From NCBI RefSeq assembly GCF_004104375.1, contig NZ_QOVM01000004.1, positions 124,001-188,000 of the forward strand: a DNA stretch of 64,000 bases, read 5' to 3'. This document shows, one piece after another, positions 38,173 through 41,436 of this stretch. The stretch comes from Leeuwenhoekiella aequorea. Its GTDB lineage: Bacteria; Bacteroidota; Bacteroidia; Flavobacteriales; Flavobacteriaceae. Position 1 is the stretch's first letter, and every line of letters begins with the position of its first letter. The position numbers and the translations under genes were made by a program. Under the pieces are notes generated by a model that ran no database searches, had not been told where the DNA came from, and saw nothing but the letters and a program-made list of their open reading frames with translations.

Positions 38173-41100
38173 CTATCCTACAAAGTTGATGATCTTACCG
38201 GGTACGATAATTACCTTTTTAGGTTCGCGACCACCTAGATACTCTTCAGTTTTCTCGTGTGCTCGCACTGCCTTTTCAATTTCTTCATTAGAAAGGTCTA
38301 GCGGAAGTTCCATTGTAAAACGCATTTTCCCGTTAAATGAAATAGGATATTCTTTACTACTTTCTACTAAATGTTTTGCGTCAAATTCAGGAAATGCTGC
38401 TGTAGCGATCGACTTATTATGGCCTAACAAACTCCATAACTCTTCTGCGATATGTGGCGCATAAGGCGAAATCAAAATGGCCAGCGGCTCCAGCACATCT
38501 CTATTATTGCATTTTAAAGTGGAAAGTTCGTTTACTGCAATCATAAATGTAGAAACAGATGTATTAAAACTGAAGTTCTCAATATCTTCCTGCGTCTTTT
38601 TTATGGTCTTGTGTAGAACTTTCATCGCCTCTTTAGAAGCAGATTCTTCTGAAACTACAAAATCCCCTAAATTACCCGAGGCATCAACTTTGTGATATAG
38701 CTTCCATAGTTTTTTAAGGAAATTATGCACTCCGGTGATTCCGGCAGTGTTCCAGGGTTTTGCCTGTTCTAATGGACCTAAAAACATCTCATACATACGC
38801 AGCGTATCTGCGCCATACTCCTCACAAATAGTATCGGGATTCACCACGTTATATTTGGATTTCGACATTTTTTCTACTTCGCGACCTACTTTATATACTC
38901 CGTTTTCTAGAATAAATTCGGCATCTTGAAATTCGGGTCTCCAACTTTTAAAAGCTTCAACATCTAACTCATCTGAAGCATTCACAAACTCTACAGGAGC
39001 GTGAATAGGCTGAACGTTAAATGAATTTTTATTTGTACTTGACACAAATTTATTTTCTCCATCTACACGATACACAAAAGCACTGGTTCCTAAAATCATC
39101 CCCTGATTAATAAGCTTTTTAAAAGGCTCTTCAACCGATGCAAATCCTCGATCTTTTAAAAACTTAACCCAGAAGCGACTGTATAATAAATGACCGGTTG
39201 CGTGTTCGCTTCCGCCAATGTACAAGTCTACATTCTGCCAATAGTCCATCGCTTCTTTTGAAGCAAAAGCTTCATCGCGCAAAGCTTTCTCCATATACCT
39301 GAAGAAATACCAGCTCGATCCCGCCCAACCTGGCATGGTGTTGAGTTCTAAAGGAAAAACAGTTTTATGATCAATTTTCTCATTGCCAACTACCTTATTT
39401 TCGGTAGTATCCCATGCCCAAATATCTGCACGACCTAATGGCGGCTCACCTTCTTCGGTAGGTAAGTATTTTTCGACTTCAGGTAAGCGAATAGGTAAAT
39501 GCTCAGCAGCGATCATTTGTGGCATTCCGTCAACATAATATGTTGGGAACGGTTCTCCCCAATAGCGCTGGCGGCTAAATACCGCATCACGTAAACGATA
39601 GTTAATCTTACCTTGACCTTGCTCTAATTCTTCGAGTGCTTCAATCGCCTTAGGAAGCGCTTGTTTGTAAGACAGCCCGTTTAAGAAATCAGAATCTTTA
39701 AGCGGCGTATTATCTTTTTCCGCGTATGCCCGATCACTAATATCAACCCCATCAAATATATTTTTAATAGGAATATTAAAATGCTTTGCAAAATCCCAAT
39801 CCCGCTGATCCCCGCAAGGAACCGCCATCACGGCTCCTGTACCATAACCTGCAAGCACATAGTCTCCTATCCAGATTGGAATAGGCTCTTTGGTAAAGGG
39901 GTGTTCTGCATATGCTCCGGTAAATGCTCCCGAAATGGTTTTTACATCTGCCATACGTTCGCGCTCACTGCGCTTTGCAGTTGCTGCTATATACGCATCA
40001 ACTTCCGCTTTTTGCTCTGGAGTGGTAATCTCATTAACCAAATCTAGTTCTGGAGCAAGTGTCATAAACGTAACCCCAAAAATAGTATCAGGACGAGTTG
40101 TGAACACAGATATACGCTCCCCACCTAAATCCTCCCCCAAGGTGAGGACTTTCTCACGACGCTCTATTTCACTGGTAATCGTTTCAACTACCTTTTCAAC
40201 ATTATTCAGCACCTCATCGTTAGAGAATCTTAGAACTTTGTACCCTTTTTTCTGTTCCAATAACAATTGACGTTCTGCATCTTTATCCATTTGATATTGA
40301 TGCACATCCCCATCTACCTCAACAATGAGTTGAGCTGAAAGACACACAAAATCAACAATATATTGATCAATTGGATGTTGCTGTCTAAATTTAAATCCGG
40401 TTTTTTTACCGCGCAATTTGCTCCACAGTAGGGCCTCGGCTTTTGTAGGTTTATCACGCATTTCCTGAGCGCGTTCTAAAAGAACCGAGATTAGTTCGGG
40501 CTTTCCGGTCATAAAACCGGCGTGGCTTGCGCCCCCTCCATGGGAGGGGGTTGGGGGGAGGATTCTGAATTCTACCGAAGCTCCTTTACTTCTCCCGATC
40601 CAATTGGTTTGTGAATCCTTAAGCGGTTGTGGCCAATCTATATCTTGCAATCCATCTAGTAAACGCTGGGCATATGCACTGATGCGCATACTCCATTGCG
40701 TCATTTTTTTTCGTACCACAGGATGCCCGCCACGTTCTGAAACGCCGTTTACAATCTCATCGTTTGCTAAAACCGTTCCCAATGCTGGACACCAGTTTAC
40801 TTCGGTTTCTGCAAGGTAGGTTAAGCGGTATTTTAAAAGGATTTCTTGTTTCGCTATTGCAGAAGCATTTTTCCACTCTTCAGCAGTAAATACTTCAATA
40901 TTTTCATCACAAACCGCATTAACTGAAGCATTTCCTTCAACTTCAAATTTTGCAATAAGGATGTCTACGTGTTCTGCTTTGTTGCTGTCTTTATTATACC
41001 AACTTTCAAAAAGCTGAATAAAAATCCATTGCGTCCAGCGGTAATACTCAGGTTCTGATGTACGTACTTCCCGACTCCAGTCAAATGAAAAACCGATTTT

Positions 41101-41436
41101 ATCAAGTTGCTCACGGTAGCGTGCAATGTTGGTTTCAGTCGTAATAGCAGGGTGTTGCCCGGTTTGAATGGCATACTGTTCTGCAGGCAAACCAAACGAA
41201 TCATAACCCTGAGGATGCAACACATTAAAACCTTGATGGCGCTTATAACGCGCATAAATATCACTGGCGATATACCCTAATGGGTGCCCCACGTGTAATC
41301 CTGCTCCCGAAGGATAGGGAAACATATCAAGCACATAATATTTAGGCTTGTCGCTGTTATTTTGAGCTTCAAAAGTACCGTTATCTTTCCAGTGCTTTTG
41401 CCATTTTTCTTCAATCGCGTTAAAATCGTAGTTCAT
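38173..41436 (-). CDS. leuS: Leucyl-tRNA synthetase with an inserted DUF559 endonuclease domain
   Basis: A 1087-residue class I synthetase, about 150 longer than usual. Normal parts are FPYPSGAGLHVGH (HIGH-type, 48-51), the CP1 editing domain with the threonine-rich TTRPDTIFG (446-454), RQRYWGEPFP, LYIGGSEHATGHLLYSRFW, KMSKS at 856-860 and the anticodon-binding and C-terminal domains. Between VEFRI (to 292) and ISVFTTRPD (from 442), in the first beta hairpin of CP1, lie 149 in-frame residues that match DUF559. The synthetase should still work because the insertion is in a surface turn and all catalytic motifs are present; effect on editing is unknown. No second leuS is in the window. Confidence 0.95.
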   Translation of the reverse strand: MNYDFNAIEEKWQKHWKDNGTFEAQNNSDKPKYYVLDMFPYPSGAGLHVGHPLGYIASDIYARYKRHQGFNVLHPQGYDSFGLPAEQYAIQTGQHPAITTETNIARYREQLDKIGFSFDWSREVRTSEPEYYRWTQWIFIQLFESWYNKDSNKAEHVDILIAKFEVEGNASVNAVCDENIEVFTAEEWKNASAIAKQEILLKYRLTYLAETEVNWCPALGTVLANDEIVNGVSERGGHPVVRKKMTQWSMRISAYAQRLLDGLQDIDWPQPLKDSQTNWIGRSKGASVEFRILPPTPSHGGGASHAGFMTGKPELISVLLERAQEMRDKPTKAEALLWSKLRGKKTGFKFRQQHPIDQYIVDFVCLSAQLIVEVDGDVHQYQMDKDAERQLLLEQKKGYKVLRFSNDEVLNNVEKVVETITSEIERREKVLTLGEDLGGERISVFTTRPDTIFGVTFMTLAPELDLVNEITTPEQKAEVDAYIAATAKRSERERMADVKTISGAFTGAYAEHPFTKEPIPIWIGDYVLAGYGTGAVMAVPCGDQRDWDFAKHFNIPIKNIFDGVDISDRAYAEKDNTPLKDSDFLNGLSYKQALPKAIEALEELEQGQGKINYRLRDAVFSRQRYWGEPFPTYYVDGMPQMIAAEHLPIRLPEVEKYLPTEEGEPPLGRADIWAWDTTENKVVGNEKIDHKTVFPLELNTMPGWAGSSWYFFRYMEKALRDEAFASKEAMDYWQNVDLYIGGSEHATGHLLYSRFWVKFLKDRGFASVEEPFKKLINQGMILGTSAFVYRVDGENKFVSSTNKNSFNVQPIHAPVEFVNASDELDVEAFKSWRPEFQDAEFILENGVYKVGREVEKMSKSKYNVVNPDTICEEYGADTLRMYEMFLGPLEQAKPWNTAGITGVHNFLKKLWKLYHKVDASGNLGDFVVSEESASKEAMKVLHKTIKKTQEDIENFSFNTSVSTFMIAVNELSTLKCNNRDVLEPLAILISPYAPHIAEELWSLLGHNKSIATAAFPEFDAKHLVESSKEYPISFNGKMRFTMELPLDLSNEEIEKAVRAHEKTEEYLGGREPKKVIIVPGKIINFVG
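40128..40140. repeat. Inverted repeat, 3' end of the leuS insertion
   Basis: AATCCTCCCCCAA. It matches the reverse complement of 40551-40564 except for one missing C. About 14 more inserted bases lie between it and the resumed synthetase sequence. No target duplication was recognised. Confidence 0.7.
40532..40550. repeat. GC-rich hairpin in the leuS insertion
   Basis: CCCCCTCC/GGAGGGGG, an 8-bp perfect stem with a three-base loop, in AT-rich surroundings. It adjoins the inverted repeat at 40551-40564 and encodes the TPSHGGG segment. Confidence 0.75.
40551..40564. repeat. Inverted repeat, 5' end of the leuS insertion
   Basis: TTGGGGGGAGGATT, the inverted partner of 40128-40140 with one extra G. 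The junction with normal leuS sequence is at the codon for Ile292. Confidence 0.7.

Follow-up and report, generated by a model that had tools for sequence, protein, structure and literature searches.

Results

A DUF559 domain lies inside the editing domain of LeuS

The window, the whole 64-kb stretch of DNA analysed here, contains leuS, the gene for leucyl-tRNA synthetase, and the editing domain of this LeuS carries an extra segment of 146 aa whose position and parts are as follows.

38173..41436, minus strand: leuS, leucyl-tRNA synthetase, the host gene (ORF of 1087 aa)
40126..40563, minus strand: inserted element as translated, LeuS residues 292-437 (comparison with leuS without the insert)
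40165..40479, minus strand: DUF559 nuclease domain, residues 320-424 (Pfam; E334, D362, E373, D375 and H379 conserved)
39634..40122, minus strand: continuation of the CP1 editing domain of LeuS, PF13603, residues 439-601 (Pfam)

Pfam analysis of the window's LeuS recovered the catalytic domain, DUF559 at residues 320-424 (PF04480; E 2.2e-34, 118 bits against a curated cut-off of 20.6), the editing domain again from residue 439, and the anticodon domain. The reading frame stays open across the whole insert, which is coding throughout, and the length found is close to the 149 extra codons of the original prediction. Among the matches listed, the best named match of the insert came from Leeuwenhoekiella marinoflava (91%), and relatives such as this one place the window in the genome of a marine member of the Flavobacteriaceae. 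The original prediction had also held that the domain is not an intein and stays in the protein, and the absence of both an intein family from the Pfam result and a splicing sign from the sequence is consistent with its retention. An intein would have a precedent, as a DUF559-like domain can sit in one: a Mu gpF-like gene elsewhere (L041:1986-4136) contains, as judged by eye, an apparent intein carrying a DUF559-type nuclease. Against an intein in the window stands the Pfam result, and against an assembly artefact the fact that the same place in leuS is filled in 63 of the best 80 relatives, from many assemblies; on these two grounds both explanations were ruled out, and we rate their probability as close to negligible.

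The model of full-length LeuS (mean pLDDT 84.3) places the DUF559 domain between the editing-domain strands at residues 282-293 and 441-446, joined to them through two disordered linkers (residues 296-309 and 429-439, pLDDT under 50), in agreement with the proposed insertion between adjacent strands of this domain. For the DUF559 domain itself (mean pLDDT 80.7), the closest solved structure was 3hrl, a Neisseria endonuclease-like DUF559 protein (profile E 1.6e-30; TM 0.90 of target), and the homing endonuclease I-Bth0305I (3r3p) was matched at a Foldseek E of 3.4e-4 and a profile E of 1.5e-6. The Vsr-like nuclease fold suggested earlier is therefore upheld through 3hrl and the I-Bth0305I catalytic domain, Vsr itself giving a weak structural match (E 0.07). 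The predicted core residues D362, E373 and D375 fall within the Pfam match and are, together with E334 and H379, invariant in 38 aligned LeuS sequences, all of which were picked for carrying the insert. By its modelled fold and its conserved acidic and histidine residues, the domain is classed as a putative nuclease of the Vsr/EDxHD type, that is, PD-(D/E)XK/Vsr-like.

The dN/dS of the DUF559 core was 0.04-0.31 in 14 of 15 pairs, the remaining pair not being computable, and that of the host leuS was 0.02-0.11 in the same set. The low values in the core, taken with the invariant residues, indicate that purifying selection acts to keep the predicted nuclease. Degenerate in-frame DUF559 domains, with the second acidic residue and the histidine gone, were seen in two other LeuS (L040:4430-4882 and L042:4486-4923); their sequences mark them as decay in place after invasion, and the nuclease evidently can decay there.

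Inverted repeats and hairpins form the ends of the insert

The two ends of the window copy contain the following features.

40552..40564, minus strand: left terminal repeat AATCCTCCCCCCA (pattern search of the window)
40532..40550, minus strand: left GC hairpin, 8-bp stem and 3-base loop, CCCCCTCC-CAT-GGAGGGGG (read from the sequence)
40128..40140, plus strand: right terminal repeat AATCCTCCCCCAA, in the opposite orientation to the left repeat (pattern search of the window)
40130..40148, minus strand: right hairpin TCCTCACC-TTG-GGGGAGGA, one mismatch (sequence; relatives L052 and L063)

The inverted repeat AATCCTCCCCC(C)AA opens and closes the inserted segment. A search of the 64-kb window for AATCCTCCCCCNA gave six matches, of which the two without mismatch are the two element ends (40128-40140, plus; 40552-40564, minus) and the other four have two mismatches each, so that the proposed terminal inverted repeats were recovered along with the GC-rich 8-bp hairpin at 40532-40550. 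The right-hand hairpin, with its one mismatch in the window copy, is perfect in L052 and L063. By coordinate the two hairpins encode residues 296-302 and 430-436, which lie inside the disordered linkers. Relatives of the insert in other genes have like ends, and hairpins are enriched over controls around DUF559 genes (see below); these comparisons indicate that the ends are more than chance, and they agree with the view that GC-rich ends are part of the element.

Searches of the window's own genome found no second DUF559 domain, no second copy of the insert ends with the patterns tried, and no other close match to the left-hairpin palindrome, and no target-site duplication was identified by eye. 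The further repeats or hairpins and the free DUF559 copy for which the original prediction had called for a search thus did not turn up in that genome, where the insert is single-copy. Jumping within the window's genome was accordingly not seen, and the case for mobility is drawn from relatives.

The leuS site is filled, empty or differently occupied in relatives

Each of 13 genomes from the window's genus (Leeuwenhoekiella or near) yielded a leuS gene, and the loop at the insertion site differs sharply among them: in five it has 18-22 residues and no DUF559, and in eight it has 149-220 residues. Short repeat-like DNA of a different sort occurs in all of the short loops except that of L054. 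Five of the eight inserts are of the window's type, and three (L058, L060 and L062) are of another type that is 50-56% identical to the window's; L057 and L060, for example, share 95% identity in the LeuS parts compared and 53% in the insert. The original prediction had set against a mobile element an insert shared by all relatives, bare of repeats at its ends and with no copies elsewhere. What emerged instead were the empty sites it had expected in close relatives, and the five empty genes together with two divergent insert types led us to reject a fixed LeuS domain.

Across 52 LeuS genes of the genus and family there were 20 with DUF559, 2 with degenerate DUF559, 22 empty and 8 with other short inserts, counts that are not frequencies because the set was hand-chosen and long ORFs were favoured. 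On the tree of these 52 genes the presence or absence of DUF559 switches at least 12 times. Other short in-frame inserts in the same loop (L080, L086, L099, L083, L084 and L088) resemble dispersed palindromic repeats of the MLKQVQHD..SELDSESH, VIASEAKQS and LSAVEGS types; in a dispersal test, the MLKQVQHD-type leuS insert matched one place per genome, taken as leuS itself, in four of five genomes. The LeuS loop may be a general landing place for inserts, and its permissiveness may explain part of the recurrence in leuS.

The insert has spread laterally between leuS genes

The window and L052 differ at 3 of 69 four-fold sites in the insert and at 93 of 241 in the surrounding leuS (p 2.5e-9), with DNA identities of 98% in the insert and 90% and 89% in the flanking leuS stretches. 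Similar contrasts were observed between the Dokdonia loci L178 and L195 (6/56 in the insert vs 108/246 in the host) and between L058 and L060 (5/57 vs 92/245). That the insert is far less diverged than the leuS around it argues that the insert itself spread laterally. Constraint on its silent sites is not the cause, because the window and L057 diverge equally, at 0.48 of four-fold sites, in insert and host. Among the pairs listed, several (L152-L153, L051-L057, L052-L057, L167-L033 and L192-L208) show this vertical-looking pattern of equal divergence.

We also scanned 392 pairs, selected by a host divergence filter from 2145 examined with 4 repeat genomes left out. In 222 pairs the inserts were less than 60% similar. 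Among the 170 pairs with inserts at least 60% identical, the insert was less diverged than the host in 128, of which 17 reached p<0.05, and more diverged at p<0.05 in one; the pairs share loci and so are not independent, and host divergence near 0.6 is near saturation. Constraining the eight genus inserts to one clade was rejected (p-AU 5e-5, with one set of identical rows, present on both sides, left free), as was a single clade for the inserts of Maribacter (p-AU 4e-7) and of Aequorivita (6e-40), and the inferred insert tree thus differs from the host tree.

A further explanation is exchange of whole leuS alleles between species, with the insert as a passenger. The identity profiles speak against it in two pairs: between the window and L052 and between L178 and L195, DNA identity is 98% across the insert and only 85-90% to either side of it, and both leuS flanks are as diverged as stretches further off. 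This step at the insert edges contradicts whole-gene transfer for these pairs, and we consider the explanation very unlikely in general. A comparison of the leuS DNA beside the site among filled alleles, made for signs of co-conversion, gave no raised identity, so that any repair tract was short or is old. Taken together, these sequence comparisons indicate lateral spread at one fixed site in several pairs and vertical descent in some others.

A vertical history with frequent loss, in which the domain has been domesticated by LeuS for tRNA editing or a stress response, would accommodate the purifying selection on the catalytic core, the several pairs that diverge at the host's pace and the in-frame degenerate copies in L040 and L042. 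It is contradicted by sharp-edged lateral spread, the rejected single clades, the two divergent types in one genus and the occurrence of DUF559 in metH, ileS, recG, tgt and other genes described below, and we hold it to be quite improbable.

Relatives of the insert occupy other housekeeping genes

A profile search of GTDB genomes, with a query drawn mainly from leuS inserts, gave at least 542 confirmed relatives, of which the best 80 were examined; this choice of query biases the proportion of leuS among them. All 80 are situated in long housekeeping ORFs or pieces of such ORFs, and they represent seven kinds of host gene, with the nature of the ends read by eye: leuS (63), metH (6), ileS (6, at two sites), a UvrD/RecB-like helicase (2), and one each of a family III CoA-transferase, methylmalonyl-CoA mutase and queuine tRNA-ribosyltransferase (tgt). 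Among the 63 leuS cases the frame is broken inside the insert in L216, and several are cut by contig ends. Pfam supports the host in L198, L211, L213, L221 and L223, though for L223 it goes no further than class I synthetase (I, L, M, V type); the other hosts among the best 80 were assigned by motif or by eye. Assignments made by eye or short motif include ileS in L197, L201, L203, L212 and L226, leuS in L182, L186, L191, L200 and L216, the helicase of L227, hisD, hemD, metH and threonine dehydratase. Candidate-phyla bacteria contributed two leuS cases at the same loop, one metH case and the tgt case to the best 80. In a survey of the family, 72 of 149 genomes had a DUF559 match, weak ones counted, and in-frame or fused DUF559 also occurred in recG, metH, hisD, hemD and a dehydratase gene. 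The hemD copies (L004, L009, L011, L017, L018 and L028) lie in frame with and ahead of hemD and form a clade from six genomes of different genera (support 100/99).

In a 130-row DUF559 tree, built without L040 and L042 and with SH-aLRT support only (53 of 123 inner branches unresolved), there were 13 changes of host label against a mean of 45.6 for shuffled labels. This order by host gene suggests that most spread was between copies of the same site, in a homing-like or vertical manner, with rare jumps. The exceptions are two RecB-like copies nested within leuS copies, and a group in which the CoA-transferase and tgt copies join leuS copies from two candidate phyla and one of Bacteroidota; their placement suggests jumps between genes. 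The idea of a mobile element that enters genes in frame thus gains from the relatives in other genes and the empty alleles and finds no jump in the window's own genome to support it, and its mode of spread has to be revised, mostly to movement between copies of the same site and rarely to new genes.

Hairpins flank DUF559 genes and also occur without them

Of 118 DUF559 loci, 27 had GC hairpins on both flanks and 64 on at least one; among 1107 control windows the numbers were 0 and 82. A few genomes entered this test twice (e.g. L039 and L216), and some loci (5 of 80 named, 7 of 50 from the family) were excluded for want of a core motif, for short flanks, or as weak, degenerate or intein matches. 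Terminal inverted repeats exceeded the 99th percentile of controls at 34 of 131 loci. For 12 plasmid loci (fetched from 38 records with a match, in Pseudomonadota, Cyanobacteriota and Deinococcota) and E. coli ycjD, 11 of these 13 had a hairpin on any flank and 6 on both, compared with 23 and 3 of 117 controls, the hairpin background being higher in these hosts, some of which are GC-rich. The E. coli ycjD and Synechocystis loci had no hairpin by the strict test, and like motifs are visible there by eye. Free-standing DUF559 genes in three other phyla thus often appear between similar hairpins.

Two Deinococcus plasmid genes are bounded by terminal inverted repeats that are nearly perfect over about 55 bases. 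In Deinococcus sp. QL22 the spacer between paaD and paaZ is without the element and too diverged to place the junction. On Sinorhizobium meliloti pSymB (L253:1900-3049), DUF559 lies between long inverted repeats, which may be the known RIME repeats, and short pieces of the locus occur in mostly rhizobial plasmids: a query of this DUF559 with its flanks matched 139 plasmid records at no fewer than 441 places, with four records holding most of the query and most of the 40 matches listed covering just 40-50 bases of the flanking repeats. In E. coli K-12 (L247:4200-4420), GC palindromes that we take to be BoxC-type were seen by eye near the DUF559 gene ycjD. On a Synechocystis sp. B12 plasmid (L256:1671-5078), DUF559 follows short ORFs and stands just before pglX, which it has perhaps split by insertion.

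Copies without the nuclease were found among relatives. The leuS insert of L063 consists of a short unit with the same ends, DUF559 and a second short unit, all in frame, and the Mucilaginibacter protein of L213 has two copies with the same ends in one reading frame, one with DUF559 and the other without it. The L213 genome has 11 further places with one right-end sequence, GGGGAGGATTTAGG[AT]GGGG; in nine of these an inverted left end lies 71-146 bases away, of the two remaining places one is truncated at a contig start, and no frame of more than 87 codons crosses any of them. A looser right-end pattern matched in four of nine genomes, with 11 matches vs 8 for a backward control in the L213 genome and 3 vs 4 in G313, so that the count alone proves nothing; it is the identical right end and the inverted left ends that suggest the L213-genome places are copies.

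Dispersed DUF559-less pairs of inverted hairpins were also found in genomes G096 and G310. In G096, 13 of 13 fetched palindromes have the same extended end (with CGGAGGG), and a second, different hairpin lies at most 140 bases away in 9 of the 13 (10 counting an imperfect one in L130). The DUF559 genes of G027 and G129 lie inside tandem arrays of hairpin units; such arrays, with a period of about 111-200 bp, were seen at L145 and L149. Five or more CTCCCTT-type palindromes occur in 5 of 149 family genomes, and all five have a strong DUF559 (E <1e-20), as do 51 of the 149, giving by our own arithmetic a chance of about 0.004. The palindrome CCCCTTTN{2,9}AAAGGGG gave background only in the 149 genomes, at most 4 matches in each, and the right-end pattern GGGGAGGAYTTAGGNGGGG matched in 2.

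These patterns raise the alternative that the element is transposon-like, its DUF559 protein acting on its own hairpin ends as RAYT does on REP sequences and copying the complete element to other sites, with recurrence in leuS reflecting no more than a loop that tolerates insertion. Such a mode would account for the ends shared by unrelated host genes, the dispersed hairpin pairs of G096 and G310, the arrays around DUF559 in G027 and G129, the strong DUF559 in every genome rich in CTCCCTT-type palindromes, the long Deinococcus terminal repeats and the other repeat-like inserts in the same leuS loop. Free transposition fits less well with an insert tree ordered largely by host gene, with a single copy in the window's own genome, with the lack of amplification of the second palindrome pattern, with a right end confined to 2 of 149 family genomes and with no target duplication seen. 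We give this alternative an even chance.

Discussion

The fixed site with its empty alleles, the lateral spread, the shared ends, the other host genes and the selection on the nuclease, all read from sequence, provide a framework for understanding how this insert may persist. We regard as probable a model in which it is a selfish, hairpin-ended element that spreads between leuS alleles through its nuclease, jumps rarely to new genes and is not spliced. The element of about 440 bp would encode only the DUF559 nuclease domain, in the frame of the host gene, and its GC-rich ends would double as code for flexible Pro/Gly-rich linkers. With such linkers the nuclease could fold as a separate domain between the editing-domain strands, leaving LeuS presumably working and unharmed. 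The LeuS-borne nuclease may recognise and cut a leuS allele that lacks the element and has come in by DNA transfer; repair would then copy the element into the cut allele in the manner of a homing endonuclease. Rarely, the hairpin ends, if they are recognised, could let the element into a new gene. Insertions that disable an essential enzyme would be lost, and in-frame ones in permissive loops would remain.

Self-removal after transcription or translation, as in introns and inteins, is the usual way for mobile elements to survive in essential genes. The leuS element appears to persist without splicing, its own ends coding for harmless linkers, and it also shows a way for new domains to come into tRNA synthetases. 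More broadly, and tentatively at a little under an even chance, GC-rich hairpin repeats of BoxC/PIT-like and RPE-like kinds could form one superfamily spanning the bacteria, with DUF559 proteins as the mobility enzymes that it has lacked. Its members would make up a novel class of mobile elements: two inverted hairpins would enclose a Vsr-fold nuclease gene or else a short spacer, the ends could be read as linkers, and essential genes would be colonised without splicing, so that the nuclease settles permanently as a domain in tRNA synthetases and other housekeeping enzymes. DUF559 is a candidate enzyme for the movement of GC-rich hairpin repeats, and with its roughly 150 residues the protein opens that question to experiment. 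The original prediction knew of no description of this class; a full-text search of open-licence papers found no description of a leuS-type hairpin-ended DUF559 element, a result that agrees with this and is weak as evidence.

Several known systems share parts of this architecture. The structure 3hrl has the same DUF559 fold, but as a separate 104-residue chain in the PDB, outside any larger enzyme. REP/REPIN sequences with their RAYT comprise inverted hairpin pairs and short nuclease-less copies, with the nuclease gene elsewhere in the genome. The dispersed gene-less inverted hairpin pairs are common to both systems, here in the relatives' genomes G096 and G310 and not in the window's. RAYT is a HuH enzyme (PMC6006769) with an HUH (Y1) nuclease, whereas the leuS element carries the PD-(D/E)XK/Vsr-like DUF559, and REPs are by name extragenic.

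The BoxC/PIT/triplex motif repeats resemble the GC-rich hairpins of the CCCTCACCC..CCTCTCC..GGAGAGG type seen by eye beside DUF559 genes. A BoxC/PIT-like hairpin lies about 200 bp from E. coli ycjD, a gene that fails the strict hairpin test, and like motifs were recognised by eye at Azospirillum, Sinorhizobium and Synechocystis DUF559 loci; these hairpins may be of the BoxC/PIT type. A 2015 paper on the E. coli triplex motifs reports no transposase or integrase remnants near them (PMC4666352), whereas here a DUF559 gene stands beside like hairpins.

A DUF559 gene has been assigned to the EDxHD homing family (PMC9403480), and a DUF559 protein is tied to mismatch repair in Caulobacter (PMC12907096). 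EDxHD homing endonucleases such as I-Bth0305I (3r3p) are alike in catalytic-domain fold and conserved residues, and spread between alleles of one site is indicated here too by sequence comparison. I-Bth0305I is a mobile-intron protein, whereas the leuS nuclease, with no intein family, apparently stays in its host protein; and the leuS element has the catalytic domain only and lacks the long DNA-binding region that PMC3943268 describes. Rickettsia palindromic elements (RPE), described in PMC10969869 as palindromic, about 150 bp long and in frame in many unrelated genes, are like the leuS element in being palindromic and in frame in several unrelated genes. That description names no mobility gene for RPE, whereas in the present system nuclease-bearing and nuclease-less copies share the same ends.
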